From Lactovum miscens (GTDB lineage: Bacteria > Bacillota > Bacilli > Lactobacillales > Streptococcaceae): 64,000 nucleotides of DNA. The position numbers and the translations under genes are program-made. Shown here piece by piece: positions 28,440 to 48,258 of this stretch; the stretch's first letter is position 1; the number at the start of each line of letters is the position of its first letter. The notes under the pieces were generated by a model that was not told the DNA's origin, did not search any database, and saw nothing but the letters and a program-made list of their open reading frames with translations. The stretch lies in the NCBI RefSeq assembly GCF_014202895.1, contig NZ_JACHHV010000006.1:1-64000 (forward strand), in the 5' to 3' direction.

Positions 28440-28449
28440 CTTGCTTGAT

Positions 28450-29427: not shown

Positions 29428-29430
29428 TTT

Positions 29431-30420
29431 ATGGCTGAAAAGTTAGTTTCAATTATTGTTCCAGTCTATAATTCAGAAAATTTTCTAAAAAGAACAATTC
29501 AATCGATTCTTTATCAGACATATCATAATTTTGAGCTTTTATTAATTGATGATGGTTCAAAAGACGAATCTGGTAAGATTTGTGATGACTTTGAAAAATC
29601 TGATGGGCGTATTAAAGTTTTCCACATGGGAAATGGTGGGATTTCAGTTGCTCAAAACAAAGGATTGGATGAAGCAAAGGGAGAATACATAACCTTCTGT
29701 GATAATGATGATATTTATCATCCACAATACTTGGAAGTGCTAGTTACATCCCTAGAAAAAACTGGTTCAGATATTGCTAAGGGACGCACAGAGAGTCCTG
29801 GAATGAGTGCACTTGATAATTTTAATTTTTGTGGCATCCAATATGATATTGCTTCTTTGAATTTGACTGTTTTTCCGGATCCATTACAAAAATATCACGA
29901 AATATTTCTTAAGTCTGTTAAAATTTGGGGGAAAAGTGCCTACTACTTTAATGAGGCAAACTGGTGTAAACTTTATAAAAGAGAATTATTTGACAAGATT
30001 CGCTTTCCAATCAATCGATATGCTCAAGATGTAGCTGTAGTAGGTGATCTTCTAATCCAAGCTAAAAAAGTCGTGGATGTGGAGGCAGTGATTTATTTTT
30101 GGATTCAACATACAGAGTCTGTAACTCATGATAAGGATAAGCGGCGAAATTTCAAGTTCTTAGAAGACAACATTTTTGCTGGAGTTGCAGGTTTTAATGT
30201 TGCTATAGAGAATGGAATTGTACCTTTCAGGAGTTATTTCATTCTTGAGACAACTTTGCGAGATATTAAAAAGATAGGTGGAAATCACTCAGAACTAATC
30301 CAGCATATAGAAAAAGAATATCTGGATAATATGCCACATAAGATGAAAGCAATTCTTTTTAATATAATAGGCCGTGTAGAATATTTCTTTTATGCGAAAA
30401 TTGTTTCAGAAAAAAAATAA
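29431..30420 (+). CDS. GT2 glycosyltransferase
   Basis: A 329-residue family 2 transferase. The N-terminal GT-A domain shows VSIIVPVYNSENFLKRTIQS, LLIDDGSKDESGKICD and the DxD-type motif TFCDNDDIYHP. The C-terminal half is variable, without membrane segments. It probably adds one sugar to the wall polysaccharide repeat; donor and acceptor are not predictable. A short perfect GTGAAG/CTTCAC hairpin lies at 30462-30478, before the ABC permease gene. Confidence 0.82.
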   Translation: MAEKLVSIIVPVYNSENFLKRTIQSILYQTYHNFELLLIDDGSKDESGKICDDFEKSDGRIKVFHMGNGGISVAQNKGLDEAKGEYITFCDNDDIYHPQYLEVLVTSLEKTGSDIAKGRTESPGMSALDNFNFCGIQYDIASLNLTVFPDPLQKYHEIFLKSVKIWGKSAYYFNEANWCKLYKRELFDKIRFPINRYAQDVAVVGDLLIQAKKVVDVEAVIYFWIQHTESVTHDKDKRRNFKFLEDNIFAGVAGFNVAIENGIVPFRSYFILETTLRDIKKIGGNHSELIQHIEKEYLDNMPHKMKAILFNIIGRVEYFFYAKIVSEKK

Positions 30421-30496: not shown

Positions 30497-31318
30497 ATGA
30501 ATATTTTTGAAAAGAAAAATCGAATACTCCTTAAGGAGTTAGTAAAAACGGATTTCAAATTACGTTATCAAGGTAGTGTTATTGGTTATCTCTGGTCAGT
30601 CTTGAAGCCAATCATGCTTTTTCTTGTCATGTACTTGGTCTTTGTGAAGTTTTTGAGGTTTGGAGCCGCGGTACCACACTTTGCAGTTGCTTTGCTTTTA
30701 GGTATAACAATTTGGAATTTTTTCAGTGAATCCACAATAGTGGGTATGCAAGCAATTGTTGGTAGGGGAGATTTGCTCCGTAAAGTTAGTTTTTCAAAAT
30801 CAATCATTATTTTATCAGTTGTATCAAATGCATTTATAAACCTTATGATTTCAACCACGGTAGTGATAATTTTTGCTATTATTAATGGAGTTCATTTCAG
30901 CTGGAATGTTATTTTTGCAGTACCTCTTTTGTTTGAATTATTTATTTTTACTTTAGGAATTGTTTTCATGATTTCTACAGCTTTTGTGTATTTTCGTGAT
31001 TTGAGTCCCGTTTGGGAAGTTGTAATGCAAGCCGGTTTTTATGCGACTCCAATAATTTATCCGATAACGCAAGTTTCGGAAAGAGCCGGAAATATTGGGC
31101 ATTACGCAGCTAACTTTATGATGATGAATCCGATTGCTCAAATTGTTCAAGATATGCGCTACATTTTTACTTATAGCAATAATACCAATCCAACAGTATG
31201 GCAAATGTTACATAATCCTTTACTTATTATGATTCCATATATTATGCCAATAATAATTTTCTTTATTGGTTTTTGGATATTTAACAGAAAATCTAAAAAA
31301 TTTGCGGAGGTAATCTGA
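30497..31318 (+). CDS. Polysaccharide ABC exporter permease (RgpC/Wzm-like)
   Basis: A 273-residue ABC-2 type permease with six hydrophobic segments. The first cytoplasmic stretch LLKELVKTDFKLRYQGSVIG with YLWSVLKPIMLF is the hallmark of RgpC/TagG/Wzm proteins. A late segment reads GFYATPIIYPI. With the ATPase that overlaps its end by one base, it exports the lipid-linked rhamnan chain. AGGAAA precedes the ATG. Confidence 0.9.
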   Translation: MNIFEKKNRILLKELVKTDFKLRYQGSVIGYLWSVLKPIMLFLVMYLVFVKFLRFGAAVPHFAVALLLGITIWNFFSESTIVGMQAIVGRGDLLRKVSFSKSIIILSVVSNAFINLMISTTVVIIFAIINGVHFSWNVIFAVPLLFELFIFTLGIVFMISTAFVYFRDLSPVWEVVMQAGFYATPIIYPITQVSERAGNIGHYAANFMMMNPIAQIVQDMRYIFTYSNNTNPTVWQMLHNPLLIMIPYIMPIIIFFIGFWIFNRKSKKFAEVI

Positions 31319-32499
31319 TGACTGAAGAAATAGCTGTAAAAGTAAGTCACGTAAGTAAATTTTTCCGTTTACCAACTGAAGCGACTAATAGCCTTCGTTC
31401 AAAAATGATCAACTCATTAAAAGGGGTTAAAGGCTACAAACAACAATATGTTTTAAAAGATATAAATTTCACTGTTAATAAAGGTGATTTCTTTGGAATT
31501 GTGGGTCGAAATGGTTCGGGTAAGTCTACACTTTTGAAAATAATTTCACAAATTTATGTTCCGGAGACAGGCAATGTAGAAGTTTCTGGTAAGTTGGTTT
31601 CATTTATTGAATTGGGAGTTGGATTTAATCCAGAGTTAACTGGACGTGAAAATGTTTATCTAAATGGTGCCATGCTGGGATTTTCAACAGGAGAAATTGA
31701 TGGTATGTATGATGAAATTGTCGAGTTTGCAGAGCTTGGTGAATTCATGAATCAAAAGCTTAAAAACTATTCATCAGGAATGCAAGTGCGCTTAGCTTTT
31801 TCAGTTGCCATAAAAGCGAAAGGAGACGTACTTGTTTTAGATGAAGTTCTTGCTGTTGGCGATGAAGCTTTTCAGAGAAAATGTGATAATTTCTTTAAAG
31901 AGATAAAAGAAGATAAAACCAAAACAATCATTTTAGTAACACATGACATGAACTCGGTAAAAAAATACTGTAACAAGGCTGTTCTTATTAAGGATGGATT
32001 AATAACTATTAATGGTTCACCAAATGATGTTGCAAACGAATATATAAAGGAAAATTTTAGCACTCATAAAAATGAGTCGGGAAATGAAAATAGTTTTGGA
32101 GTAAGCCCAAGTATTCCTATTCTAGACATTAAAGCAAACTCTCCAATAATTTTGAAAAACATGGAGAATTGTTCCTTTAGCATTGAATTTGAATCAAAAG
32201 AGAAAAAAAATCTCAAACTAGAACTCCGCGTAAGTGATGATGTTAGCAGTGCGTTAATTACTCGTCGAGTTAAGGAAATTGAAGCATTTGGAAAACAATC
32301 AATAAATTATATCTTACCAATATCTATATTAAATAATATTCAGTTTAATGTTAAAGTAACAATTACTGATAAGGATACAGAAGAGATACTAGCTTATACT
32401 ACTGAAGAAAAGGCTCTCCATTTTAAAATAGATAACTCAGCTAATAAGGGAAAAGGACTACTATCTCCTTCTGAAGCTGTAAGTGGTGATTGGTCATGA
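31318..32499 (+). CDS. Polysaccharide ABC exporter ATPase with C-terminal domain (RgpD/Wzt-like)
   Basis: The ATPase domain spans about residues 1-250. It has Walker A GRNGSGKSTLL, signature NYSSGMQVRLAFSVAIK, Walker B DVLVLDEVLAVGDEAF and H-loop VTHDMNSVKKY. The remaining ~140 residues form a beta-rich extension like the Wzt C-terminal carbohydrate-binding domain, which in some systems recognises a capped glycan end before export. RgpD homologues also carry such an extension. Start overlaps the permease stop; its own stop overlaps the next gene (ATGA). Confidence 0.9.
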   Translation: MTEEIAVKVSHVSKFFRLPTEATNSLRSKMINSLKGVKGYKQQYVLKDINFTVNKGDFFGIVGRNGSGKSTLLKIISQIYVPETGNVEVSGKLVSFIELGVGFNPELTGRENVYLNGAMLGFSTGEIDGMYDEIVEFAELGEFMNQKLKNYSSGMQVRLAFSVAIKAKGDVLVLDEVLAVGDEAFQRKCDNFFKEIKEDKTKTIILVTHDMNSVKKYCNKAVLIKDGLITINGSPNDVANEYIKENFSTHKNESGNENSFGVSPSIPILDIKANSPIILKNMENCSFSIEFESKEKKNLKLELRVSDDVSSALITRRVKEIEAFGKQSINYILPISILNNIQFNVKVTITDKDTEEILAYTTEEKALHFKIDNSANKGKGLLSPSEAVSGDWS

Positions 32500-33596: not shown

Positions 33597-34910
33597 ATGG
33601 AAAAAATAAAGGCAGAAAAAGTTTTTTTGTGGATTATGCTTATTTGGGGACTTCTGGCTACTTTTGTGACTCCCCCTTTAACAACAGGGGATGAAGGATA
33701 TCATCTAAGTATTGCTTATAATATTTTCTCATCTGAACACCCTTCTACAATGTCAATGCGACCAATGAGGGATCTTGAGTTTGAAGCAATTGGTGGAAAT
33801 TATGATGGTGACACAAGTACTTTTAATAAAAAATCTTTAGTTATCCAAAAAATAAACTTGCAGCACGACGGCGTAAAGCTTAATTTGGATAATAGTGATA
33901 GTAGCTTTGGACCAATCGATTTAATGCACCTACCCGCGGCATTTGGCGTCCTTCTTGCACGCCTTGTCTACCCCAGTGTTGGTGTGATGGATTATGGAGC
34001 AAGAATTGCAAATTTATTATTTTTTGTACTTTCATTTTATTTTCTGATAAAAAGAAGAAAGTACGGGAAATGGATTTTAGTGATGCTTTTCACTGTTCCC
34101 TTTATGCAAAAAGTAGCAAGCCCGAGTTATGACGTGTTTAGCTATATTGCTTTAGCGACATATTCACTTAATTTATTTGACCTAGCACTTGTAGAAAGAT
34201 TTAGAGATCTCAAGACATCAAAGATTCTTTATAGTTTATTTACAGTTCTACTGTTAATTTTTTCAAAAAAAAATTATGTGTTTGCTTTATTTGCTCTTCC
34301 CGGTCTTCCTCTTATTTATCAACCATTTTTAGTGTCTATAGAGCAGTTGGATAAAAAAGTTAGATCTTTCTTATATCTGATTAGTGGATTGGCAGCCGCA
34401 ATCATTGTATACTTTCTAAATGGCAAATTCCATTTAGTGCATCTGTTTAAGGTATTTTTCAACAATTACATTGTAGGGCAATTTGCTTATAATGCTACTA
34501 TATGGAGTGTTGTACCAACAACTATTCCAAATTTTATCAATATCCTATGGTTTGTTGCACTGGCGTTAGTGGCTGTTGGAGAGAAAGGTCATGTTTATAA
34601 AAAATGGACAGCTGTAAATTTCGCGTTAGTATACTTTATAAATTGGTTAGGTATATTTACAGGATTTTACCTTATGAAGGAATCTTTATCCAGCTTTGCT
34701 GACCTTTCAGGACGTTATCTTCATCCTTTTATGGTTTTTTTCATTCCTCTTGCCCAAAGTTTTAGAAAAAAGGTTAATTTAGAGATTAATGAAAAGGCAA
34801 TTTCAATGATCGCGATACTCATAACGATTTTTGTTTTAGCTTTATATCTATTTATTACTTTCTACAGAGGTTTTATTCTAAGAGTTAACCCAACATGGGC
34901 TTACCATTAA
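33597..34910 (+). CDS. DUF2142-family multi-pass membrane protein
   Basis: A 437-residue integral membrane protein with about 9-11 hydrophobic segments. The extracytoplasmic loop after the first segment carries TPPLTTGDEGYHLSIAYNIF; the acidic-histidine pattern and the later SPSYDVFSYIALATYSLN are typical of DUF2142. This family belongs to the GT-C-like membrane glycosyltransferases, so it may transfer a side-chain sugar from a polyprenyl-phosphate donor outside the cell (family-based inference). No clear Shine-Dalgarno sequence. A paralogue lies at 39800-41395. Confidence 0.75.
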   Translation: MEKIKAEKVFLWIMLIWGLLATFVTPPLTTGDEGYHLSIAYNIFSSEHPSTMSMRPMRDLEFEAIGGNYDGDTSTFNKKSLVIQKINLQHDGVKLNLDNSDSSFGPIDLMHLPAAFGVLLARLVYPSVGVMDYGARIANLLFFVLSFYFLIKRRKYGKWILVMLFTVPFMQKVASPSYDVFSYIALATYSLNLFDLALVERFRDLKTSKILYSLFTVLLLIFSKKNYVFALFALPGLPLIYQPFLVSIEQLDKKVRSFLYLISGLAAAIIVYFLNGKFHLVHLFKVFFNNYIVGQFAYNATIWSVVPTTIPNFINILWFVALALVAVGEKGHVYKKWTAVNFALVYFINWLGIFTGFYLMKESLSSFADLSGRYLHPFMVFFIPLAQSFRKKVNLEINEKAISMIAILITIFVLALYLFITFYRGFILRVNPTWAYH

Positions 34911-34929
34911 TAAGGAGGTTGAGAGTAAG

Positions 34930-35826
34930 ATGAATAAGAAGGTTTCTGTTGTAGTTACTTGCTATAACCATGAAGCATATATTGAACAATGTCTAAAAAG
35001 TATTTTTTATCAGAGTTATCCAGCGATAGAGCTTTTGATTTTTAATGATGGTTCAACGGACAAGTCAGATGAAATCATTAGAGGACTATTGAAGGATTCA
35101 CCTTTTAAAACACAGTATTTCTTTAGTAAAAACCAAGGAATTGCCAATGTTAGAAATTTAGCGCTGACGAAAATTTCTGGTGAATTTCTACTTTTTGTTG
35201 ATAGTGATAATTTTTTAGATAAAGATTATGTTGAAATACTCTATAGAGGTCTCAATAAAAGCAATGCTGACATTGCTTATGCGCGACTTTGGGATTTTGT
35301 TAATGAGACAGATGTTTTGGCTGGTGATCTAGAATACACTTTTGAAAAAGAACTTGAAGGAAATCGAATTGATAACTGCTCTCTTATCCGTACGTCAAAA
35401 CTTGGTCAAGCAGGTTTTGATAGAGAATTAAAGAAACTTATAGATTATGACTTTATCCTTAATTTAATTATTAATGAAAAAGCAAAACCAATTTATATTC
35501 AAGAAACAAAGCTAAACTATCGGGTCCTTGAAAACTCAATCTCGGATCATGGCAATTGGGACAAATATTATAAAGCATATTTCAGCATATTGGACAAGTA
35601 TATCCAGAAAATACCCATAGATGTGGTCGAAGCCCTCAAAAAGAATGTTGAAACTTGGGTATCAGGATATTCTAATCTAGAAATCGAAAAAAATAAATTT
35701 ATGCTTAATTCTCAAAAAGAGATTGATGAGTTGAACAAAGCATTACAAAGTTTGAAATCTTCTCGCTCATACAAGCTTGGTAAGCTATTGCTTTTACCAA
35801 TTAGATTGCTTAGGAGAAAAAAATGA
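34930..35826 (+). CDS. GT2 glycosyltransferase with basic C-terminal tail
   Basis: A 298-residue family 2 transferase: VSVVVTCYNHEAYIEQCLKS, LLIFNDGSTDKSDEI and FLLFVDSDNFLDKDY (DxD-type motif). The C-terminus has a short coiled stretch followed by SSRSYKLGKLLLLPIRLLRR, a tail frequently found in wall-polysaccharide transferases and possibly membrane-associating. AAGGAGG lies 11 bases upstream. Its end overlaps the RgpF start (ATGA). Confidence 0.82.
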   Translation: MNKKVSVVVTCYNHEAYIEQCLKSIFYQSYPAIELLIFNDGSTDKSDEIIRGLLKDSPFKTQYFFSKNQGIANVRNLALTKISGEFLLFVDSDNFLDKDYVEILYRGLNKSNADIAYARLWDFVNETDVLAGDLEYTFEKELEGNRIDNCSLIRTSKLGQAGFDRELKKLIDYDFILNLIINEKAKPIYIQETKLNYRVLENSISDHGNWDKYYKAYFSILDKYIQKIPIDVVEALKKNVETWVSGYSNLEIEKNKFMLNSQKEIDELNKALQSLKSSRSYKLGKLLLLPIRLLRRKK

Positions 35827-37613
35827 ATCGTCTACTGATTTACGTCCATTTTAATAAATACAATAGCTTAAGTAATCACGTTATATATCAATTGACAAAA
35901 ATGCGTCATATCTTTAAAAGGGTACTTTTTATTTCCAATAGTTATTTATCAGAAGCAGATAAGAGTTTACTTGAAAAAAATCAACTGATTACTGAGCTAA
36001 TTTTACGAGAGAATAGAGGTTTTGACTTTGCTGCATGGAAAGAAGGTATTGACAAATTTGGTTATAAAAACTTAGAGAATTATGATTCAATTACATTGAT
36101 GAATGATACTTGTTTTGGGCCACTCTATGACCTTTTGCCTTATTATGAAAAATACGAAGATAGTTTGACAGATTTTTGGGGGATCACAGATCATCGTGAA
36201 TTTCAAGATATAGAGACTCATGACAAATTTGAGCAACACGTTCAATCATATTTTATGGTTTTCAGTAAGAAAGTCGTAATTTCTGAACCTTTTTCAAAAT
36301 TTTGGAAGGAAGTTAAGGTTTTTGAAACAGTAGTAGAAGTAATTACTAAGTATGAGAGTCATTTAACTGCTATCTTAAGAGATGCAGGCTTTTCATATAA
36401 GGCGATTATTGAAACTATTTCAAGAGATGCTTCAAAGATGCCATACCCAAACTTCTCTTTGTTTGCTCCAGAAGTCCTCATTCAAGAAAAATGTCCTTTT
36501 ATTAAAGTTAAAATTTTCGATTTTAATTTAGGTATTGCCCCCTATATTATTGATAATATTGAAAAAAAATCAGATTATCCTGTCTCTCTTATTAAAGAGC
36601 ATCTATATCAGACTGACTTCCCGCATAAGCCCTTCCTTATAGAAGACAGCTATCTAACAACTGCTGAGAGAAATATTTATGATAAAAAGGTGGCTATTCA
36701 TATCCATGTATATTTTCCTGATTTATTAACTAGATTTTTAGAGTTACTAATTGAAGTGACCTGTGGCTTTGATTTATTCCTTACAACGGATTCAAAGGAA
36801 AAGCAATCCATAATACAAGAAATTTTAAAAAACTTTAAATTTAATGTATTTATCAAGGTGTTTCCTAACAGAGGTCGAGATATTATTCCACTTTTAGAGT
36901 TAAGAAGAGAGCTATCTAATTATGAGATTATTGGTCATTTTCATACCAAGCGTTCTGATGAGGTTTCTTATTTTGTAGGAGATTCTTGGCGTGAAGAATT
37001 GATGGCTATGCTTGTCAAACCAGCAGATAATATTATTTCACAAATGAATCTCAACAACAATTTGGGGGTAGTGATTGCAGATATCCCAAGCTACTTTAGA
37101 TACAACTACACAATAAATTTTGCAAGAGAAAGTGAAGCCTTATCCCCTATCATGAATAAGCTATGGGATAAATTAAAAAGAAGAAAGACTATTGATTTTT
37201 CAAGCTTAGATGATTTTATTATGTCTTATGGGACTTTCTTTTGGGCAAGGCGCGAAGTTCTTGAGCCTCTTTTTAATCTAGATCTGAAGGATATTGATAT
37301 TCCAGAAGAACCGTTAGGTCAAAACACTGTTTTGCACGTAATTGAAAGAATATTAGTTTACCTCGCTTGGGATATGAATTATGATTTTAAAATTTCTCCA
37401 AATGAGAAGAAACTTCCACCGTTTATTGATAGACAAAAAAATAATAAGTATGTAATTGAACTCACGAATTATGCGGATACAATGGCTGAGATGGTTAAAG
37501 CTCAACAATCTGAGCTTGAGAGAATCCGCAATTCAAAAAGTTTTAAAGTTGGAAGTCTAATTACAAAACCTTTTAGGGAATTAAAGAAAATGGAGAAAAG
37601 TGAAAACTTATGA
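35823..37613 (+). CDS. rgpF: RgpF-family rhamnan synthesis protein
   Basis: A 596-residue homologue of RgpF, a rhamnosyltransferase of streptococcal and lactococcal rhamnose polysaccharides. N-terminal IYVHFNKYNSLSNHVIYQL and LRENRGFDFAAWKEGI, with SITLMNDTCFGPLYDLLPYY, mark the first domain. A second related half contains VAIHIHVYFPDLLTRFLELL and KVFPNRGRDIIPLLELRREL, then GHFHTKRSDEVSY. The C-terminus NSKSFKVGSLITKPFREL resembles the preceding protein's tail. Overlaps of 4 bases on both sides show tight coupling. Confidence 0.88.
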   Translation: MNRLLIYVHFNKYNSLSNHVIYQLTKMRHIFKRVLFISNSYLSEADKSLLEKNQLITELILRENRGFDFAAWKEGIDKFGYKNLENYDSITLMNDTCFGPLYDLLPYYEKYEDSLTDFWGITDHREFQDIETHDKFEQHVQSYFMVFSKKVVISEPFSKFWKEVKVFETVVEVITKYESHLTAILRDAGFSYKAIIETISRDASKMPYPNFSLFAPEVLIQEKCPFIKVKIFDFNLGIAPYIIDNIEKKSDYPVSLIKEHLYQTDFPHKPFLIEDSYLTTAERNIYDKKVAIHIHVYFPDLLTRFLELLIEVTCGFDLFLTTDSKEKQSIIQEILKNFKFNVFIKVFPNRGRDIIPLLELRRELSNYEIIGHFHTKRSDEVSYFVGDSWREELMAMLVKPADNIISQMNLNNNLGVVIADIPSYFRYNYTINFARESEALSPIMNKLWDKLKRRKTIDFSSLDDFIMSYGTFFWARREVLEPLFNLDLKDIDIPEEPLGQNTVLHVIERILVYLAWDMNYDFKISPNEKKLPPFIDRQKNNKYVIELTNYADTMAEMVKAQQSELERIRNSKSFKVGSLITKPFRELKKMEKSENL

Positions 37614-38452
37614 GTGAAACATTAGATATTTCAGTAGTCATTCCTTTTAAAGATAAACCTGAACTTACCATAAAGGCTATTGAAACTTTTAGAGCTTATG
37701 GTCCAAGTGTGAGAGAGGTTTTATTAATTAGTAATAATTCAAGTAAGGAAAGTCTGACAAAACTCTCACGGTTAATTGAAGGTTTAAGAAATATTAAAAT
37801 TCTAGAGTATAATATTCCGTTTAATTACCAGAAAATTAATAATTGGGCTATTTCAAAATCTACTGGCAAGTTCATTTTGATGATGAATAATGATATTGAA
37901 CTAGATGAAAATAGCAATGGCCTAATTGAAAAAATGTATTACTTTGCTAAAGATTCGGCTGTAGGAATCTGTGGGGCAACGTTACTTTATGGTGACAAAA
38001 AGCATATTCAACATGCTGGAGTGTTTCTTCACCCAGAAGGAATGGCTGATCATATGTATGTTAAGAAAAAATATAGTTCAGCTGTGAACAAAGCTGGAAC
38101 TATAGAATTCCCGTATGATGTCCAAAAAAATATTAAGATGACGGCAGTTACTGGTGCATTTCAACTAATTGAGAAATCAAAATTTGATTCAGTGAATGGT
38201 TTTGATGAAAGGTTTATTATTGGTGGTGGGGATGTAGATCTATGTATCAGGCTGAACAAGAAAGGATATCAGACATGGTTTATTGGTGGTGGGTATTTAA
38301 TTCACAAGGAGAGCATGTCAAGGCGTTTCACTCCTATTCCCTACTCGGATTTCTACTATTCTTACCTAAGTTATATAAATGGATATGATGTAAATGTTGG
38401 CGATCCCTTTCTTCCAGAAATTACAAAAAAGATTATCATAAATGGAGCCTAA
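37610..38452 (+). CDS. GT2 glycosyltransferase
   Basis: A 280-residue family 2 transferase starting ISVVIPFKDKPELTIKAI, with FILMMNNDIELDENSNGL as DxD region. The acceptor-side block VTGAFQLIEKSKFDSVNGFD followed by ERFIIGGGDVDLCIRLNKKG is common in rhamnosyl- and similar transferases. The start overlaps the rgpF stop. Donor unknown; rhamnose is plausible from context. Confidence 0.82.
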   Translation: MSETLDISVVIPFKDKPELTIKAIETFRAYGPSVREVLLISNNSSKESLTKLSRLIEGLRNIKILEYNIPFNYQKINNWAISKSTGKFILMMNNDIELDENSNGLIEKMYYFAKDSAVGICGATLLYGDKKHIQHAGVFLHPEGMADHMYVKKKYSSAVNKAGTIEFPYDVQKNIKMTAVTGAFQLIEKSKFDSVNGFDERFIIGGGDVDLCIRLNKKGYQTWFIGGGYLIHKESMSRRFTPIPYSDFYYSYLSYINGYDVNVGDPFLPEITKKIIINGA

Positions 38453-38454
38453 AG

Positions 38455-39795
38455 ATGACAGGAAAAGAATTTTTTATAAGAGCTGTTCGAAAATCGAGTA
38501 GTATATTAACGAGAGCCTTGAGAAAAGGAGCAAATGTCACTAATCGAGTTGAAAATAAAACAAATCGTATTTTGATGGGGACAGACCCTTCAATTAAGTT
38601 AAATAAGGCAGTCCCATTTCAAAAAATTTACTATGAAGGGCTCTCACTTGTCACTCCATTGAATCCTGCGATGCCTGCAATAGGTTCTAAACCTTCAGTT
38701 ACATTATTAATTCCATCTTTGGACAATTCTTCTTTTTTTGGCGGGGCGGCCACTGCTCTTATAGTTGCAGCAAAGTTTGCATTGAAAATGGGAAGACAGT
38801 TACGAATTGTTCAGACTGTAAAAACTGGAGATAGTGTTGATTTAGAGGCTCACTTTCATTCTGAGGGTATAAATATAAAAAATGATCAAATAAAAGTAAT
38901 TTCAGTTGCAGAAAGAAAGTTTGATATCTTGGCATACATTCCCATGCATAAGGAGGATCTTTTTATTGTATCTGCTTGGTGGGATGCTTATTTGGTCAAC
39001 AAATTGCCCGTGGATAAATTCGTCTATTTAGTTCAGGATTTTGAACCGGCTTTTTATAATAATTCTGACCAGTACGTTCTGGCAGAAGGAACTTACCAAA
39101 GTAGTAAAATTATTCCATTATGTAATACTAAGTTAATGTACGACTTTATGTTGGAACGTCAGTACCCAGAAATTGTTAAAGATAATGCTTATTTTTTTGA
39201 ACCAGCCGTTTCTCGTTTGGCTTCTGGTAAGCTTATTCATAAGGAACACGGTGTTAAGCAAAGGATCTTCTTATATGGTCGTCAAAATGTTAGTAGGAAT
39301 TTATTTTTTACTGCTATTGAAGCTCTTAATATTGCCCTTAATAAAGGTTATATTACGGGAGAAAATTTTGAATTCTACATGGCAGGACAAGAAGGTTTAC
39401 CAGATATTATTTTAGAATCAGGTGTAAGAATTCAGAATGTGGGTAAAATGTCTATGGGAGATTATATTCAGTTTTCAAAAACAATTGATATTGCAATCTC
39501 TCCAATGATGGCGCCACATCCAAATTATCCAACATTAGAGTTTGCTTCTATAGGTAGTGCAGTTGTAACAACAAAATACTCAAACAAGCAAAGTTTGGGA
39601 ACTTATTCCAAAAATATTTTTATGTCAGATACCGATGCAGAGTCAATGGCTGAAATGATCAAATTAGCTGCTGAAAAGAAATATGATGAAAAGCTCAGAG
39701 ATTTAGAAGATAATGTTATTCTGAGCGATTGGGATGATAGTTTAGCTACCCCTATTATTGAGATAGTTAGAAAGTTTAACTTTGTGATAGAATAA
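38455..39795 (+). CDS. WsaF-type rhamnosyltransferase (GT4-like)
   Basis: A 446-residue protein resembling WsaF, a rhamnosyltransferase of Geobacillus S-layer glycan synthesis. Key stretches are SVTLLIPSLDNSSFFGGAAT, KFVYLVQDFEPAFYNNSDQY, LYGRQNVSRNLFFTAIEAL and the C-terminal GT-B motif HPNYPTLEFASIGSAVVTT with the conserved Glu. It would add rhamnose to the polysaccharide chain. Starts 2 bases after the previous stop. Confidence 0.8.
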   Translation: MTGKEFFIRAVRKSSSILTRALRKGANVTNRVENKTNRILMGTDPSIKLNKAVPFQKIYYEGLSLVTPLNPAMPAIGSKPSVTLLIPSLDNSSFFGGAATALIVAAKFALKMGRQLRIVQTVKTGDSVDLEAHFHSEGINIKNDQIKVISVAERKFDILAYIPMHKEDLFIVSAWWDAYLVNKLPVDKFVYLVQDFEPAFYNNSDQYVLAEGTYQSSKIIPLCNTKLMYDFMLERQYPEIVKDNAYFFEPAVSRLASGKLIHKEHGVKQRIFLYGRQNVSRNLFFTAIEALNIALNKGYITGENFEFYMAGQEGLPDIILESGVRIQNVGKMSMGDYIQFSKTIDIAISPMMAPHPNYPTLEFASIGSAVVTTKYSNKQSLGTYSKNIFMSDTDAESMAEMIKLAAEKKYDEKLRDLEDNVILSDWDDSLATPIIEIVRKFNFVIE

Positions 39796-39799
39796 ATAC

Positions 39800-41395
39800 A
39801 TGAGGGATTTTTTACAGAAAAAATTAAAAATAGAATTTACCAAATGGAAATTATTACAGATTTTAATCGCGGTTTTTCTTCTTTTTTTTAGTCAATATGC
39901 ACTTCAAGATACTACCTTTCATTTTCCTAACAAGGTAGTTTTTGCTGTTTCAGTTGTAGCTGTAGTTCTATTAATACTTTTTATCAAAGATTTAACGAAT
40001 AAGAAATTTTTGGCTAGAAATGTTGCGCTGATAATAATCTTGGTTGGTGGTGCTGCTTGTGTAATAAAAGCGCCACAAAGAGGACTAGATGAGGAAAGTC
40101 ATCTTACTTATGCTATTGAGCTAGCAGACGGAAATTTCTTTAAGTATGAAAATGATTTTAATCCTGCAAAAGTTGATGTAAATGTTTCTCAACCTGACTG
40201 GAATGCTGTGTATAATTTTGACTCTCTCAGAAACCCTAGCGCAGATAACAAATTATCTAATTTTCTTCAGCCAAAACACCAAAGTTCAAAGTACTCTGGG
40301 AAAATTACAGGGTTAACCAATTTATCCTATATTCCAAACGCGATTGGTTGGGATATTGGAAGGATTATTTCTAACAGAGTATTTGTTTCTTATTATTTAG
40401 GCCGTCTCTTTAATGTTCTAGCTTTTGCACTGCTTGCGTTTTTCGCTGTAAAGATTTCGAAAAGATATTCGGAAGTTTTGTATTTGTTTGCAACTTTTCC
40501 AACTACACTTTGGATTGTAGCTGGTTATAGTTATGATTACCTTTATTATGGACTAGCTTTAATACTTTTTGCTTTGTTTACAAATTTTTTTGCAAAAGAA
40601 AAATCTATTGGAAAAAAAGAAAGCCTACTCTTCATTGGTCTCTCATCACTAATGATATTTCCGAAATTTCCCTTTGTATTGATTGGTACTTTTATTTGTG
40701 TGTTCCCAAGTAGATATTATAAATCTGCAAGGGATCGTATATTTGCTGGAGTCGTTTTTCTCATGAGTATGATTTTAGCTGGAATCTACTATATAAGCGG
40801 TTCAATTTTAACGAAGATTTTTCATTCAGTATCACCAACAAACAACCCAACAATTCAGGGTGGAGGAATTTTTTCTCTAGTAGCTCACCCAGGGATACTT
40901 TTGAGGACTTTCTTTTTTGAAGTGTTAGGGTCAATCGGTGTTTTTTCAGGAACAAACCAAGGAAATCCCCCTGCTCCGTTGCAGTATACTAATACAGATT
41001 CAGCCTTTTTACATAATATTAGCCCATTTTTATTCGTACTACTGTTAGTTTTAGTCTCAGCAAACATTCAAATTAAAATCCCTAATAAGATAAAAGTTTT
41101 TATAGTAGGTGTCTTTTTAGCCATTTCTTTTATGATTATGTATGCGATGGCTGGGGATAGTCGAGTTGGGATGAAAAGCGGTGATGTTATTTTGCATGGA
41201 GTTCAATTTAGATATTTTTATTTAATGTTTTTGACTGTCCCATTCTTTATTTCTGATAAAATAAAAATGTTATTTAAGTCAAGTGACAATAATCTATTGA
41301 GAACAAAAGATAGTTCAGTATCATTTTTGCAGTATTCATTGATTTTCTTAAATATTTTTGTTCTTGGAATTGCTATTTTTTCTTATTGGAAGTGA
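39800..41395 (+). CDS. Second DUF2142-family membrane protein
   Basis: A 531-residue multi-pass membrane protein. APQRGLDEESHLTYAIELADG in the first external loop and FATFPTTLWIVAGYSYDYLY match the DUF2142 pattern seen in the product of the gene at 33597, so the two are distant paralogues. Probable extracytoplasmic glycosyltransferase of GT-C type (inference). Last gene of this block; a nested hairpin follows. Confidence 0.75.
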   Translation: MRDFLQKKLKIEFTKWKLLQILIAVFLLFFSQYALQDTTFHFPNKVVFAVSVVAVVLLILFIKDLTNKKFLARNVALIIILVGGAACVIKAPQRGLDEESHLTYAIELADGNFFKYENDFNPAKVDVNVSQPDWNAVYNFDSLRNPSADNKLSNFLQPKHQSSKYSGKITGLTNLSYIPNAIGWDIGRIISNRVFVSYYLGRLFNVLAFALLAFFAVKISKRYSEVLYLFATFPTTLWIVAGYSYDYLYYGLALILFALFTNFFAKEKSIGKKESLLFIGLSSLMIFPKFPFVLIGTFICVFPSRYYKSARDRIFAGVVFLMSMILAGIYYISGSILTKIFHSVSPTNNPTIQGGGIFSLVAHPGILLRTFFFEVLGSIGVFSGTNQGNPPAPLQYTNTDSAFLHNISPFLFVLLLVLVSANIQIKIPNKIKVFIVGVFLAISFMIMYAMAGDSRVGMKSGDVILHGVQFRYFYLMFLTVPFFISDKIKMLFKSSDNNLLRTKDSSVSFLQYSLIFLNIFVLGIAIFSYWK

Positions 41396-41440
41396 TCAAT
41401 TAGAAAAAATATATTAAAAGTCAAGCAAAAACTGTGAATA

Positions 41441-41515
41441 AAAAAATCATTTTTGAAAGATTAAAAGATTATGAGAAAAATCTTTTAGTGATCAAGTTAT
41501 TAAAAATGATTTTTT
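41441..41515. terminator. Nested double hairpin ending the glycosyltransferase block
   Basis: Outer perfect 14-base arms AAAAAATCATTTTT (41441-41454) and AAAAATGATTTTTT (41502-41515) enclose inner perfect 9-base arms TAAAAGATT (41462-41470) and AATCTTTTA (41479-41487). It is T-rich at the 3' end and probably a bidirectional terminator. Confidence 0.65.
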
Positions 41516-43007
41516 CTTTTAATGGTTCATCTCAATTTATTTTTCATTAAACGTCATATTACTTTGAAGCAATTTGAAAATCCGTAATACTATAGTTTTC
41601 CTAGGGCTTCCCTTAGGAGAAGATATTCTATCATATGGAGTGAAGAACTGCCAATTAACTTCGAAGCTTGAATCAGTGCACATTTTAATTATGAGGAACT
41701 ACATTTAACCATTTGTCTATGGTTATTCATATCCGCCAAGGCAGGTAAATTGCGGACATTAAAACTATCGAGGCCAACAGCCTAGTGAGGCTTCCTTAAA
41801 TTATGGATATAACAAATTTAAGCGAGAATAACAACCTTTAGCCAGTTTTAACCACATTAATAGGAAAAAATTGATAGTCAAGTTACTTTGGACCTCATAA
41901 GTTTGTGCTTGAATTTCAATAGGTATCTACTCGCAGTAATGCCAAATAGTTAAAATGAATTGTGTTAGTTTAAACTGAAGAGGAGTAGAGTTTATTCCAT
42001 ATTTTATGATTCAGCCTCTCGAATCTTTTCATCTTTATGAGCGTTATTTTCTTAATTTTAATCATTGTATTAAAATGCGCTTGACATATCTTCTGAGGTG
42101 TTGGATAGGGTAGTTAAGGTAGTGCTCATTAATTGAAGAACCCACTAAATATCAAGTCAAGTGTCTAACACACAATATTTTAGCTTTAGAAAGGTCACGA
42201 TCCTAGAGGTATCGATAGTGTGTCAGTTTTTTAGCTGATTGATCGTATCATCTGTGCAATAATGCTCTGAAACATTGTAAGGAAAAAATTTACGTGCTGT
42301 TTACGTATATGCCTTTTTATTGGTTTTGGTCTTTCTCAAGAATTGAGATTTAACAAATCCTTTGATGGGCAGAGAATTACAAGTTAAAGTGTGGTAATTA
42401 AATTTTTTTAAGAAATGTATAAGAATTTGGATGTAATGTCGAGATTCTTCAAGAGAAATTTGAATATTTACTTTGTTAGAATCAAGTTGTTCTAAACAAT
42501 ATTTAAGAGTTTGAAATCCTTAATAGACATTCTGAAATCAAAATTATAAATTCGAATTTCTCTATTTGAGCCAGTACAACCAAGATCGTGCTTATTCCAA
42601 ACAATGACTCTAAGATATAGAACAGTAAGATTCTCCTAGACTTCATATTTAGCACTGTTGCAAAACGCATGCATTCTTATGAAAGATAAAACGTCTAAGT
42701 ATTACCAAACTAATTACCAATCAAACAAAAGATATGGGTAGATTCAAAGCAAAATTGTTTAGAGATTAACAGTGAAATAATAGTCCACAGCACATAAAAC
42801 AAGTTTAACACTCGTACTTTTGCAGCAGCTAACTAAATATAATATTGATAAGTTTTAGATTATCTCACTCACTTTTAAAGTTCTTTGTTGATTGGATTTT
42901 GAAGATAGAAATTAAATACGAGATAAGATTTTTAATCTTTTGCTTAGTGCTCAAAAATTTTCAAGTTTTGTTGGTGCTTCGCCTGAAGAACACTGAATCC
43001 AGTTTTT
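41516..43007. other. 1.5 kb without intact genes, decayed DNA
   Basis: No open frame of useful length and no recognisable protein. Short sequences resembling IS6-family ends (CACTGTTGCAAAACG near 42653 and CTTTTGCAGCAG near 42817) hint at transposon debris but are not enough for a call. The stretch separates two polysaccharide gene blocks. Confidence 0.45.
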
Positions 43008-43016
43008 TGGTATAAT
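43008..43016 (+). promoter_or_regulatory. Extended -10 promoter of the second polysaccharide block
   Basis: TGGTATAAT is an extended -10 with no consensus -35 at 17 bases. The leader to the next ATG is about 145 bases. Confidence 0.5.
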
Positions 43017-43167
43017 AGCATTTGTGAAAAGTAAAGTTATCTAACTTGATGATATTTGTAGCATATTTTATACAAGGATGTACAAGTTGAAGAAATTAAA
43101 TTTGAAATTTAAGGATTTGGAGTAATTAACAAGATGAAGAAGATTTTACTAAATAGGGCGTTTGAGA

Positions 43168-43875
43168 ATGAAGAATGAGAAAATTCTTTTAATAATTCCT
43201 GCTTATAATGAGGAAGAGAGTATAGTCAATACTATCGAATCAATTGAACAGTTTAAAAGGTCAGTAAAGTTACCTTTCCAGCTAGATTATGTTGTTGTTA
43301 ATGATGGATCAACAGATTTAACTCCATTACTGGTTCTTTCAAAAGGCGTTAAACTGATAGATCTGAGAATAAATTTAGGCCTCACTGGTGGGTTTATGGC
43401 TGGTATGAAATATGCATATCGTCAAGGTTATGATAGTGTAATTCAGTTTGATGCAGATGGGCAACATCTGCCTGATTATATTCCTGCAATGGTCAAAGAA
43501 GCTGACTCAGGAGCAAATGTTGTTATTGGGAGCCGATTTGTTACTGAGAAAAAGCCTAATTCATTAAGGATGTTAGGTAGTGTATTAATTTCATTTGCAA
43601 TTAAAATTACGACAGGAAAAACAATCAACGATCCCACGAGTGGATTGAGGTTATTTGATCGGAAAGCAATTCAATTTTATGTAAAGAACTATAATATGAC
43701 CCCAGAGCCTGAGACAGTGAGCTACTTGATAAAAAAGGGTTTTATAACGAAAGAGGTTCAAGTAAAGATGCAAGACCGCTTAGTGGGAGAAAGCTATCTT
43801 AATCTCAAACGTAGTATTCAATATATGATAAGGGTAGTAATTTCTATTCTTATTCTGCAACCTTTTAGGAAATAA
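43168..43875 (+). CDS. DPM-like polyprenyl-phosphate glycosyltransferase (GT2)
   Basis: A 235-residue transferase of the dolichol/undecaprenyl-phosphate hexosyltransferase type. It has ILLIIPAYNEEESIVNTIES, DYVVVNDGSTDLT, the motif VIQFDADGQHLPDYIPAM and the family stretch VVIGSRFV...RMLGSVLISF with NDPTSGLRLFDRKA. Lacking a C-terminal membrane part, it probably works with the DUF2304 membrane protein that follows after 2 bases. Likely makes Und-P-sugar for extracytoplasmic transfer. ATG 43168 preferred over TTG 43162. Confidence 0.85.
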   Translation: MKNEKILLIIPAYNEEESIVNTIESIEQFKRSVKLPFQLDYVVVNDGSTDLTPLLVLSKGVKLIDLRINLGLTGGFMAGMKYAYRQGYDSVIQFDADGQHLPDYIPAMVKEADSGANVVIGSRFVTEKKPNSLRMLGSVLISFAIKITTGKTINDPTSGLRLFDRKAIQFYVKNYNMTPEPETVSYLIKKGFITKEVQVKMQDRLVGESYLNLKRSIQYMIRVVISILILQPFRK

Positions 43876-43877
43876 TC

Positions 43878-44228
43878 ATGACATTAACCTTACGAATAAT
43901 ACTAATTATTGGCTCTTTGGCGACAACTTATTATGTAGCGAGACAAGTAAGAAAGGGAAATATTGAAATAAATCACTCACTATTTTGGGTGTTGTTTTCA
44001 ATTTTCTTACTGTTAACAAGTATTTTTCCTCAGTATTTAGCAGTTTTAACACATCTAATGGGCATTTATTCTATAAGTAATATGATTTTTTTACTTATCA
44101 TTTTTATTTTAGTATTGAAATTATTTCAGAATTCTGTTAGCATTAGCAAACTAGAGGAGAAAATAAATTCAATTGTTCAAGAATCTGCGTTAAAGGACTT
44201 GGAGAAAAACGAAAATGATAAAAAATAG
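43878..44228 (+). CDS. DUF2304 small membrane protein
   Basis: 116 residues with three hydrophobic segments (about 4-20, 34-62 and 68-85) and a charged C-terminal coil (SISKLEEKINSIVQES). The pattern VRKGNIEINHSLFWVLFSIF is typical of DUF2304, which is regularly found after DPM-like transferases and thought to anchor them or flip their lipid product (family-based inference). The end overlaps the next gene by 14 bases. Confidence 0.8.
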   Translation: MTLTLRIILIIGSLATTYYVARQVRKGNIEINHSLFWVLFSIFLLLTSIFPQYLAVLTHLMGIYSISNMIFLLIIFILVLKLFQNSVSISKLEEKINSIVQESALKDLEKNENDKK

Positions 44229-45162
44229 CAAAATTCTTGTGACTGGCGGAGCTGGCTTTATTGGCTCTTCTCTTACCAATAAACTTCTTGTAAATAATGA
44301 AGTTATTGTAGTCGATGATTTATCAATGGGAAATTTTTCTAATTTGGTTGAATCGACAAATTTGACAAAAATTGAAGGCTCTGTCACTGATAAGACATTA
44401 CTTGAAGAAATATTTATAAAATATAACTTTGACTATATTTTTCATCTAGCTGCAGTTGCTTCGGTTGCGGATTCAGTAGCTCGCCCATTTGAAACTCATC
44501 TAGTAAACTTTGATAGTACAATGACAATTCTTGAGTTGTTGAGAAATAATAATAATAAGACATTAAAACGGCTGGTATTTTCTTCAAGTGCAGCGGTTTA
44601 TGGGGATGATCCAATACTTCCAAAATCTGAAATGAGTTCAATTAAGCCATTAACTCCTTATGCGATTGATAAGTTTGCTTCTGAAAGAATGGTTTCAATA
44701 TATAATAATCTTTATGGGGTACCTACAAGTGCAACGCGGTTCTTTAATGTATATGGGCCAAAACAAAATCCAAAATCACCATATTCGGGCTTTATTTCAA
44801 TACTCGTTGATTGTTTTAAAAAAAATAAAAAAATTACAATTTTCGGAAATGGAGAGCAATCAAGAGATTTTGTATATATTGATGATGTAGTTCAGGCGTT
44901 GATCTTACTTGCAACATCTGAGCAGGCTCAGGGAGAAGTTTATAATGTTGGAACTGGAAAGCAGGTGACATTAAATGAACTATTAGGAATTTTTCAGGAT
45001 ATTTCTGGGAAAAATATTGAGATTGTTTATGCTGCTCTAAGAGAGGGTGATATAATTCACTCTGTAAGTGATATTGGAAAAATAGTAAATATTGGATTTG
45101 AGAATAAATTTGATTTTAAGAGCGGTCTAGCAAAGTATCTGAAATATGAAGGGTTAAGATGA
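44215..45162 (+). CDS. NAD-dependent sugar epimerase/dehydratase (GalE-like)
   Basis: A 315-residue extended short-chain dehydrogenase: [44 protein letters not shown], the YxxxK motif in PLTPYAIDKFASERM and ATRFFNVYGPKQNP. It most resembles UDP-glucose/UDP-GlcNAc 4-epimerases. Probably makes the donor sugar for neighbouring transferases; the exact nucleotide sugar cannot be read from sequence. Confidence 0.85.
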   Translation: MIKNSKILVTGGAGFIGSSLTNKLLVNNEVIVVDDLSMGNFSNLVESTNLTKIEGSVTDKTLLEEIFIKYNFDYIFHLAAVASVADSVARPFETHLVNFDSTMTILELLRNNNNKTLKRLVFSSSAAVYGDDPILPKSEMSSIKPLTPYAIDKFASERMVSIYNNLYGVPTSATRFFNVYGPKQNPKSPYSGFISILVDCFKKNKKITIFGNGEQSRDFVYIDDVVQALILLATSEQAQGEVYNVGTGKQVTLNELLGIFQDISGKNIEIVYAALREGDIIHSVSDIGKIVNIGFENKFDFKSGLAKYLKYEGLR

Positions 45163-45885: not shown

Positions 45886-46692
45886 TTGAGAAAAAGTTCT
45901 CTAGTACATACGTTTGTCATTTGTGCATTCAAGGATTCGCCATACCTCTCTAATTGTATAGAGTCTTTGGTCTCACAAAAATCAGTGAGAGAAGGATTTT
46001 CGGAAGTATTACTTTACACTTCAACACCAAGTGCATATATTGAAAGTTTATGTGATAAATTTTTAATAAAGATGAATGTTGGCGAATCAAAAGGGATTGG
46101 AGCAGATTGGAATTCAGCTTTATCAATAGTAAAGACAAAGTATGCAACACTTGCACATCAAGATGATCTATATTTACCAAACTATGGAAGCAAGGTATTG
46201 GCATCTTTTGACTTAAATTGTCAAGCAAACATAGTTTTTTCTGATTATTATGAAATTGATGCTGAGGGAGCTGAACGAAAAAGGAATATAAATCTCAATA
46301 TCAAAACCCTAGCTTTGAAATTACTTTCGATTAGTGATATTAAAATTTACCAACGCCGTGTATATGCCTTCGGAAACTTTATTTCTTGTCCAGCGGTTTC
46401 TTATGACATTGAAAGACTTAAGGAATTTAGGTTTGATGAGTCTTTAAAAATGGCAGTGGATTGGGATGCTTGGGAAAGAATCATGAAGTATCCAGGTAAT
46501 ATAAAGTATATTTCAGAAAGGCTTGTGGCACACAGAATTCATTTAGACTCGGAGACAACGGCTAATAATAACGAAAAACGTGAAAAAGAGGAATATCAAC
46601 TTTTTAGACGTTATTGGGGGAAAAATATGACAAAGTTATTAATGAAATTCTACGTAAAAAATCAAAAGGGAAACCAACAACTTAAGGAGTAA
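45886..46692 (+). CDS. GT2 glycosyltransferase
   Basis: A 268-residue family 2 transferase: HTFVICAFKDSPYLSNCIES, GIGADWNSALSIVKTKYATL and the short acidic motif AHQDDLYLPNYG replacing the usual DxD. The late segment MAVDWDAWERIMKYPG with a basic end is like other wall-glycan transferases. Start is TTG with AAGGAG 6 bases upstream, well supported. Isolated by gaps on both sides, yet the frame is intact. Confidence 0.78.
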   Translation: MRKSSLVHTFVICAFKDSPYLSNCIESLVSQKSVREGFSEVLLYTSTPSAYIESLCDKFLIKMNVGESKGIGADWNSALSIVKTKYATLAHQDDLYLPNYGSKVLASFDLNCQANIVFSDYYEIDAEGAERKRNINLNIKTLALKLLSISDIKIYQRRVYAFGNFISCPAVSYDIERLKEFRFDESLKMAVDWDAWERIMKYPGNIKYISERLVAHRIHLDSETTANNNEKREKEEYQLFRRYWGKNMTKLLMKFYVKNQKGNQQLKE

Positions 46693-46992
46693 TAATTTTA
46701 ACTTTATTCCTCTGATAGCAATTTTTAGGCTTTTGTCAAATAGCATGGGTAGAAAGTTGTCACGGAAGTGATGGCTTTTTTGGTTGTGTAAATATCAGGG
46801 TTCAAGTCTTATGATCATCAAGACAACTGCTTTTCAAGCGTAAGCGATGAGAAGGTTCATCACACAAGATTACACATCAATGCCATGTTACAAAAAGTAC
46901 TTGATTTCAAGCGAAATGAGGAGTTTTTATTCCACTTAATTTAACAATTCAGCTATCTTAACTAATTTGACAAGTTGAAAATAGATTCTAGT

Positions 46993-47021
46993 TTGAAAAA
47001 AAGAAACAAAAAAGTTATAAT
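46993..47021 (+). promoter_or_regulatory. Promoter of the flippase gene
   Basis: TTGAAA (46993-46998), exactly 17 bases, TATAAT (47016-47021), ending 10 bases before the ATG at 47032. No Shine-Dalgarno sequence intervenes. The interval 46693-46992 otherwise shows no gene. Confidence 0.72.
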
Positions 47022-47031
47022 TGCTGAGTTA

Positions 47032-48258
47032 ATGAAAAATACAGTTCAGAATAAGAATGTTACTTGGAATCTGGTGGGAGTCACTTTAAATGCTTCCTAT
47101 TCACTTTTTTTGTTGATTTTTATAACCAGAATAAATGGGATTAATGCTGCAGGTGATTTTTCTTATGCATTTTATATTACTTCAGTTCTTTCAGCAATTG
47201 GCATGTATGGTGGAAGAATCTTTCAGGTTACGGATATTTCAAAGCGATATTCATCAGATCATTATATTTCTTCAAGACTCTTGACTAGCTTAGTAATGTT
47301 CATTGTCACGTTTCTGTTTTGTTTGATTAGCCTTTACAGTGTATATACCTTTTTACTATTTTTAGTTATGATCGCTTATCGTGCTGTTGAAGCTGTTTGT
47401 GAGATGTATTTTGGGATCATGCAAATAAATGATAATCTAGCAGCTGTTGGAAAATCAATGTCGTTAAAGACTGTTCTGACATTTGTTTTATTTATCTTAA
47501 TAGATTTGCTAACTAAAAATATAGTTTTAGCAAGCTTATCGCTTGTATTTTCATTTATAATCATCTATTTTTTCTATGACCGAAAGATTGCTTCTAAATA
47601 TACAAAAATCGTATTTAATTTCACACATCATACATTTGTTTTATTAAAGGAGTCTTTTTCCCCATTTATTTTTGCGTTATTGGGTTTAATTATGCTCAAT
47701 ATCGTTCGTTATTTTATTGAGTATCGAGGAAATAGCACAATTCAAGGATATTTTAGTATTATTAATATGCCAGCGGCTACTATTGCTCTACTCTCTCAGT
47801 TTTTATTTCAACCTTTATTAAATAATCTTGTAAAACTTCATCAAGTTAACAAAATGAAATTCTTTTCAATTGTAAAATTGCTATTAATTGCTTTAACCTT
47901 AATGGGTATTTTACTTGCTATTATTTCTTATTTCATCGGGGCGCCTATCTTAGGATTTGTTTATCATGTTGATATCTCAAGTTATCGTTTTGAATTAAGT
48001 CTTATTGTTTTATCTGGAATTTTTAGTGGCGCAGTAGGTGTGATTTCTAACATTTTAATCTTGATGCGACAAATGAGAATTCAGATACTTATGTATACTT
48101 TATCTATAGCTTTAGGAATACTGATTAGCTATCTTTATGTTAGAGATTTGTCAAGTTCGCTTTACACTTCCTTCATTATCATGCTTGGTGAATTTATAAT
48201 ATTTTTGTTGGTATTTTATTTTATTGTAAGAAAGAGCGTGAAAGACTCTAAGAAATAA
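47032..48258 (+). CDS. Polysaccharide flippase (Wzx/MATE-like)
   Basis: A membrane protein with about 12 hydrophobic segments, of the MOP-superfamily polysaccharide exporters (family PST). The N-terminus VTWNLVGVTLNASYSLFLLI with TRINGINAAGDFSYAFYI is typical. It would flip lipid-linked repeat units (pellicle side chains) outward, parallel to the ABC exporter route. The ATG at 47032 (408 residues) is preferred because a consensus promoter lies inside the longer TTG-started reading (from 46975). It ends next to a decayed IS3 element. Confidence 0.82.
   Translation: MKNTVQNKNVTWNLVGVTLNASYSLFLLIFITRINGINAAGDFSYAFYITSVLSAIGMYGGRIFQVTDISKRYSSDHYISSRLLTSLVMFIVTFLFCLISLYSVYTFLLFLVMIAYRAVEAVCEMYFGIMQINDNLAAVGKSMSLKTVLTFVLFILIDLLTKNIVLASLSLVFSFIIIYFFYDRKIASKYTKIVFNFTHHTFVLLKESFSPFIFALLGLIMLNIVRYFIEYRGNSTIQGYFSIINMPAATIALLSQFLFQPLLNNLVKLHQVNKMKFFSIVKLLLIALTLMGILLAIISYFIGAPILGFVYHVDISSYRFELSLIVLSGIFSGAVGVISNILILMRQMRIQILMYTLSIALGILISYLYVRDLSSSLYTSFIIMLGEFIIFLLVFYFIVRKSVKDSKK

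Follow-up and report, generated by a model that had tools for sequence, protein, structure and literature searches.

The closest described systems come from streptococci and lactococci. In Streptococcus pyogenes, GacI, GacJ, GacK and GacL are a family 2 glycosyltransferase (GT2), a small partner with three transmembrane (TM) segments, a Wzx-type flippase and a GT-C glycosyltransferase acting on the exported rhamnan, as set out in the cited passages of PMC8035078 and PMC8327497. In lactococci, WpsA and WpsB make GlcNAc-P-C55, and WpsG together with the GT-C enzyme WpsJ completes a four-component system (PMC10821137); the passages cited from PMC12599335 name WpsJ and WpsI as DUF2142 proteins, and the order of the lactococcal cwps locus is rml genes, backbone genes, RgpCD, DUF2142, RgpF, wpsA, wpsB, side-chain genes and Wzx (PMC10821137, PMC12599335). 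For the Rgp pathway of Streptococcus thermophilus (ScbA-F), the DUF2142 protein orf6935 of the rhamnan region has been proposed as a side-chain transferase, and two WpsJ-like proteins occur in one locus (PMC9746298), while in S. mutans two GT-C enzymes encoded in one locus, with SccN/SccM and SccP/SccQ, decorate one rhamnan (PMC11754754). Here we describe a comparable locus in a 64,000-nucleotide stretch of Lactovum miscens (contig NZ_JACHHV010000006.1, positions 1 to 64,000; "the window"), in which a GT2 gene followed by a small DUF2304 membrane-protein gene (43168-44228) and two DUF2142 genes, here called copy 1 and copy 2 in 5' to 3' order, are surrounded by a rhamnan-type wall-polysaccharide locus. 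This part of the locus is very probably its side-chain module, of the four-component kind. Protein families, predicted fold, a conserved motif, gene order and co-occurrence form the observed basis, from which we infer the sugars, the lipid, the direction of transfer and the acceptor.

The scheme is already known from lactococci and streptococci, and the window holds a new representative whose gene set is a mosaic. New here are the co-occurrence of DUF2304 with DUF2142, the presence of both DUF2142 lineages in one locus, the replacement of RgpA, and a decayed insertion element that we take to be of the IS110 type. Unlike GacIJKL, the module includes an extra GT2 and an epimerase, and there are two DUF2142 genes, both in the backbone half. 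Compared with the lactococcal loci, whose gene order it shares, the window lacks the DUF2142 gene of the 3' end (slot 3, defined below), a WpsH-like gene and RgpA. The likeness to S. thermophilus lies in a DUF2142 GT-C candidate in the rhamnan region, orf6935 being likened by its description only (PMC9746298), but the side-chain genes there are 5' of the backbone genes and here 3'. S. mutans resembles the window in having two GT-C enzymes and differs in its two monosaccharide donors; the word DUF2142 is absent from the main text of PMC11754754.

The GT2/DUF2304 pair and the DUF2142 proteins

A preliminary description of this DNA had read the pair as a synthase of a lipid-linked sugar accompanied by a small membrane protein, and that layout holds. 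Only two bases separate the GT2 gene from the DUF2304 gene directly downstream, the DxDxQ motif of the GT2 reads FDADGQ, with D95, D97 and Q99 invariant in all 14 rows of the alignment (A1), and the two proteins are GacI/GacJ- and WpsA/WpsB-like (Table 1). The GT2 is of the short kind that pairs with DUF2304, and its partner is the only DUF2304 locus found in the genome. It is 55–57% identical to DUF2304-preceding GT2s of Streptococcus cristatus and Clostridia and 52–54% identical to the streptococcal-type GT2s of genomes G075, G131 and G084 (we read genus g4 of our survey as Streptococcus), vs. about 40% for lactococcal WpsA. Judged by these identities, the window pair belongs to a streptococcal/clostridial group that differs from the lactococcal one.

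Copies 1 and 2 were the only DUF2142 loci found in the genome. Copy 1 is divergent, exceeding the curated PF09913 cut-off of 30.1 bits in the whole-genome search, yet hmmscan listed no family for it. Among 147 genomes searched, relatives of copy 1 occurred in seven others at 43–52% identity and relatives of copy 2 in 12 others at 34–43%, and the conservation of both is above chance. AlphaFold2 models of copy 1 (pLDDT 69.1, pTM 0.75) and copy 2 (pLDDT 70.8, pTM 0.79) were submitted to VIA structure comparison, in which the first 41 and the first 42 rows, respectively, were GT-C-type chains, the next unrelated row for copy 1 having a Z of 6.1. Among these chains were ALG12, PMT, STT3/PglB, ArnT and Aft/Emb; PIG-U, which we presume to be GT-C-like, was counted with these chains.

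GT-C enzymes keep a catalytic acid in the first outer loop. Both copies retain a D-E-x-x-H motif, which we take to be catalytic, in the predicted first outer loop. When the two copies were aligned with 24 other DUF2142 proteins, D97, H101, D246, K289, R471 and Y472 (copy 2 numbering) were identical in all 26, with D32 and H36 as the invariant motif residues of copy 1, and E98 was present in 20. In the copy 2 model D97 follows the helix at 68–89, a placement consistent with the first outer loop. As far as predicted fold and a conserved acidic residue in this loop can tell, the two DUF2142 proteins resemble GT-C enzymes; the preliminary description had proposed the GT-C type, and the fold matches and outer-loop acid to which it had tied that proposal (D97 in copy 2, D32 in copy 1) were both found.

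Coupling of DUF2142 with DUF2304

The 147 genomes were drawn evenly from the family, one per species. DUF2304 and DUF2142 occurred together in 77, DUF2304 only in three, DUF2142 only in three and neither in 64; this count omits two DUF2304 matches below the cut-off, one of G118 and the second one of G133. Both genes were on one contig in 72 of the 77 genomes, always within 15 kb of each other and in 34 cases within 3 kb, and on different contigs in the other five. Among the 84 RgpF-positive genomes, 63 had both families, two and two had one only, and 17 had neither, whereas RgpF and DUF2304 were more loosely associated across the 147 (both 65, DUF2304 only 15, RgpF only 19, neither 48). Because the DUF2304/DUF2142 association is tight also within RgpF-positive genomes and the RgpF/DUF2304 association looser, the link does not merely reflect the rhamnan locus.

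Beyond the family, gene position gave a similar picture in named genomes, for which we surveyed the best 80 of 276 confirmed GT2 relatives. Of these loci 77 were readable; in L092, L094 and L100 the open reading frame (ORF) picker kept no GT2 ORF. In 60 of the 77 the gene next downstream (+1) of the GT2 was DUF2304; DUF2142 was present in 27, and in 16 loci it immediately preceded the GT2. Half of all DUF2142 ORFs (16 of 32) occupied this upstream place, among 1086 other ORFs. Contiguous arrangements were GT2-DUF2304-Wzx-GT-DUF2142 in genomes G131 and G084 and, in a row, Wzx-GT2-DUF2304-DUF2142 in Lacrimispora and a Clostridium. The two families are closely linked, both by their presence in genomes and by gene position; among the papers searched, three name DUF2142 and a different one names DUF2304.

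Roles of the two DUF2142 copies

DUF2142 genes occupy three places in the loci of the family: slot 1 in the RgpD/RgpF interval, slot 2 after RgpF and slot 3 at the 3' end. Slots 1 and 2 are filled in the window and slot 3 is empty. The slot-2 gene of one relative (L075:3367-4979, genome G059) is split into two ORFs and probably broken. We built a tree of 49 DUF2142 rows, a part of those found, with a midpoint root only; slot labels had been assigned by gene order before tree building, except for L070, whose gene lies upstream of glf and was placed in slot 1 by similarity. Copy 1 fell in an eight-member slot-1 clade (support 100/100) within lineage I, which also contains the L. cremoris slot-1 protein and the slot-3 group; by gene place, we take these to be WpsJ and WpsI. 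The copy 1 clade is not sister to the clade with the WpsJ-position protein, and slot-3 proteins formed a clade of their own (100/100) that includes neither window copy. Copy 2 grouped in lineage II with streptococcal slot-2 proteins. Both ancient lineages sit in this single locus, and each was found without the other in relatives. A recent duplication was rejected by the position of the copies in two deep lineages under the midpoint root. Copy 1 is at most a candidate for a strict WpsJ ortholog: it shares place and lineage I with the L. cremoris slot-1 protein but lies outside its clade.

A single DUF2142 gene and a single DUF2304 gene were found in each of the streptococcal genomes G022, G056, G060 and G075, in which the GT2 and DUF2304 genes cluster with the Wzx-like gene and with a relative of the 45886 GT2, the DUF2142 gene being at most 15 kb away. 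The DUF2142 proteins of G022, G056 and G075 are lineage II relatives of copy 2 in the tree; that of G060, outside the tree sample, was assigned because it is 40% identical to copy 2. Because the sole DUF2142 accompanies the sole DUF2304 in these four genomes, lineage II can serve alone, whereas the seven other genomes with proteins of the copy 1 clade each have a second DUF2142. Copy 2 is for this reason the first-choice ligase and most likely the enzyme that attaches the side chain, with copy 1 either an alternative ligase or the adder of a second decoration. The two copies could possibly reflect two acceptors or two sugars.

In the mechanism that we propose, the GT2/DUF2304 pair would, at the inner membrane face, link undecaprenyl phosphate to a first sugar, the 45886 GT2 would add probably one more, and the Wzx-like protein would flip the lipid-linked oligosaccharide outward. 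A DUF2142 GT-C enzyme, most likely copy 2, would then use the Asp of its first outer loop to pass the glycan off its undecaprenyl-phosphate carrier and onto the backbone exported by RgpC/RgpD; copy 1 would be an alternative ligase or a second decorator. The one extra GT2 suggests a side chain of roughly two sugars, and with a putative Wzx-type flippase and at least one extra glycosyltransferase the transferred unit is probably not a single sugar but an oligosaccharide.

Several points weigh against this scheme. The VIA scores (copy 2, Z 14.1 to ALG12, its top match, and 10.6 to ArnT; copy 1, Z 14.0 to Pmt4, its top match, and 12.4 to ArnT) come with the program's warning that helical models may reach Z about 14 by arrangement alone, and Foldseek alone gave no match at E ≤ 0.001 for either model. 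Pfam gave no match for the Wzx-like protein itself. The genomes are related, which makes the Fisher P values of the co-occurrence a guide only and no true probability, and no DUF2142 is seen nearby in 50 of the 77 readable loci, which means that either other transferases also serve such pairs or contigs end early. A dead mobile element now cuts the copy 2 gene off from the GT2; in G054 the relative of copy 2 directly precedes the GT2. With WpsA, whose product is known, only about 40% identical, the sugar handled by the window GT2 should not be assumed to be GlcNAc. Finally, the literature gives the ligase role to WpsJ, which corresponds by position to copy 1, not copy 2.

It is conceivable, if less than probable, that copy 1 is the side-chain ligase in the role of WpsJ and that copy 2 adds a single glucose from undecaprenyl-phosphate glucose made by GtrB, flipped by GtrA and supplied from elsewhere in the genome. 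Copy 1 lies at the rgpD/RgpF place, the site of the sole DUF2142 in the rhamnan half of the L. cremoris locus, and the cited passages of PMC8327497 put wpsJ in the rhamnan half. The genome has a GtrB-like GT2, 59% identical to one in a streptococcal rgp locus and with no GT-C gene beside it, and a GtrA gene elsewhere, but GtrB genes may serve another glycan. The separation of the copy 1 clade from the WpsJ-position clade also argues against this alternative, as does the pairing of a copy 2 relative, as the only DUF2142, with the only DUF2304 in the four genomes named above. The GtrB-like GT2 genes are at L174:8729-9682 and L175:8873-9838, the former without a GT-C-sized membrane gene beside it and the latter with large multi-TM neighbors, and the sole GtrA match in the genome (L176:7685-8164) is on another contig.

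We consider it unlikely that one DUF2142 protein is a side-chain polymerase, the role of WpsI, and the other the ligase: the lactococcal 3'-end protein WpsI is a proposed polymerase in the cited part of PMC12599335, and lineage I holds both WpsJ-place and WpsI-place proteins, but the separate slot-3 clade excludes the window copies, and no WpsH-like co-polymerase (two TM, about 600 amino acids) was seen in the window locus. Very improbable is a reading along the lines of the preliminary description, in which lipoteichoic acid would receive single sugars from a three-component system: the three protein types (GT2, small membrane protein, GT-C) are present, but the GT2 is of the DUF2304-pairing kind and nearby genes serve an exported wall polysaccharide. 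The system is not a classic three-component one (GtrB-GtrA-GtrC or CsdA-CflA-CsdB), since its small partner is DUF2304 and the GtrA-type flippase is not with the GT2; a four-component kind with a putative Wzx-type flippase and at least one extra glycosyltransferase takes its place. Of the two acceptors put forward there, exported wall polysaccharide is retained, in keeping with the rhamnan-type locus, and lipoteichoic acid is rejected: no linked gene supports it, and the genes of the locus are for an ABC-exported, rhamnan-type wall polysaccharide.

The wider locus and the acceptor

All genes of the preliminary description are real and lie at the positions that it gave. The locus opens with rmlA, C, B and D (22332-25879), ugd and glf (26065-28370) and two GT2 genes (28441-30420), followed by the RgpC/RgpD-type exporter, a phosphoribosyltransferase-like gene, copy 1, a GT2 and RgpF. 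After RgpF come a GT2, a WsaF-like transferase, copy 2 and a 1.77-kb gap, and 3' of the gap lie the GT2/DUF2304 pair, the epimerase, a further GT2 and the Wzx-like gene. The names rml, ugd and glf are our assumption from the sequences and agree with the gene places. The same frame recurred in neighborhoods fetched from other genomes of the family. TM segments were counted by simple hydropathy.

Table 1. Features of the side-chain module and adjoining backbone genes in the window.
Feature	Position	Strand	Evidence
ugd, glf, GT2 (presumably GlfT1-like), second GT2 where relatives have RgpA/RgpB	26065..30420	+	ORFs
RgpC/RgpD-type ABC exporter of the backbone polymer	30497..32499	+	51–76% identity to RgpC/RgpD-like ORFs of the rhamnan-type loci examined
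DUF2142 copy 1, predicted GT-C glycosyltransferase, lineage I	33597..34910	+	437 amino acids; PF09913, 39.9 bits
GT2 and RgpF (rhamnan synthesis), backbone genes	34930..37613	+	RgpF: PF05045, 515 bits; GT2_c adjoins RgpF in relatives
DUF2142 copy 2, predicted GT-C glycosyltransferase, lineage II	39800..41395	+	531 amino acids; PF09913, about 173 bits
Non-coding remnant of a transposase gene (presumably IS110-type), between copy 2 and GT2	41396..43161	-	G019 matches
GT2 polyprenyl-phosphate sugar synthase, GacI/WpsA-like	43168..43875	+	235 amino acids from ATG; PF00535, 86.5 bits; DxDxQ
DUF2304 small membrane partner, GacJ/WpsB-like	43878..44228	+	116 amino acids; PF10066, 101.7 bits (cut-off 25.5)
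NAD-dependent epimerase, UDP-sugar supply	44215..45162	+	PF01370
GT2, likely second-sugar transferase of the lipid-linked side chain	45886..46692	+	PF00535, 31.9 bits
Candidate Wzx/GacK-like flippase	46975..48258	+	25–31% identity to ORFs just after wpsB (GacK position) in streptococcal loci

The last two genes of the module lie beyond the span of the preliminary description, yet belong to the same pathway. Relatives of the 45886 GT2 adjoin wpsA, wpsB and wzx in streptococcal and lactococcal loci, those of the epimerase (66–69% identity) follow wpsB directly or lie near it in G057, G042, G039 and G051, and one streptococcal ORF aligned to the Wzx-like protein matches PF01943 with a score below the cut-off.

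The backbone half departs from the canonical RgpA/RgpB pair upstream of RgpC/RgpD. No RgpA relative was found in the window, in the rest of the genome or in the same-genus loci L070, L071 and L080, with a query that finds 20 other ORFs at E ≤ 1e-20 in the fetched loci, and there was no close RgpB relative, the best RgpB-like match in the window being weak (E 8.8e-15, at 29431). The glf gene, the GlfT1-like GT2 (a name that we presume) and the second GT2 also occur in the same-genus genomes G019 and G001, and G026 shares the first GT2. With RgpA missing and galactofuranose-type genes in its place, the acceptor may be something other than plain rhamnan; the gene content suggests that it may be a galactofuranose-containing polymer. 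A wider proposal, which we regard as doubtful, is that DUF2142 is the dedicated GT-C partner of GT2/DUF2304 in the family, possibly across Firmicutes, with two ancient lineages for different acceptors or donors and, in this genus, a galactofuranose-gene backbone instead of rhamnan as acceptor; if true, a single locus would decorate a mixed polymer with side chains at sites of two kinds.

The phosphoribosyltransferase-like gene between RgpD and copy 1 (32490-33506) encodes a PF00156 domain and a further C-terminal part, and in L066, L067 and L068 the GT2 before RgpF, a GT2_c relative, is part of a protein of 978–987 amino acids.

The gap that separates copy 2 from the GT2 is the relic of an insertion element. 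Pieces of it match copies in G019 at 67–78% identity, two of these places being in transposase ORFs that we presume to be IS110-type, and a minus-strand ORF (42301-42519) still resembles the transposase. A hidden gene or RNA was rejected: the longest open stretch in the gap is 72 amino acids, vs. 73.5 in shuffled sequence, the gap has no Rfam match, and searches against proteins gave weak, scattered matches only (best E 0.005). At the 3' end of the locus, a gene-free 1.5 kb (48259-49774), whose last 117 bases are 79% identical to a stretch of contig C23 of the same genome, is followed by the gene of a secreted, presumably lysozyme-like protein (49775-51235), relatives of which flank the same locus in G057, G059, G051 and G054.

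The near-perfect pairing of DUF2142 with DUF2304 can serve as a sequence rule by which to find the transferase in each of these systems. In lactococci and streptococci the side chains of wall polysaccharides act as receptors for phages and influence the shape and division of the cells (passages of PMC10821137 and PMC12542673), the S. thermophilus side chain being a phage receptor (PMC12542673). With both DUF2142 lineages and no slot-3 polymerase, L. miscens offers a simple genome for testing which lineage attaches what.

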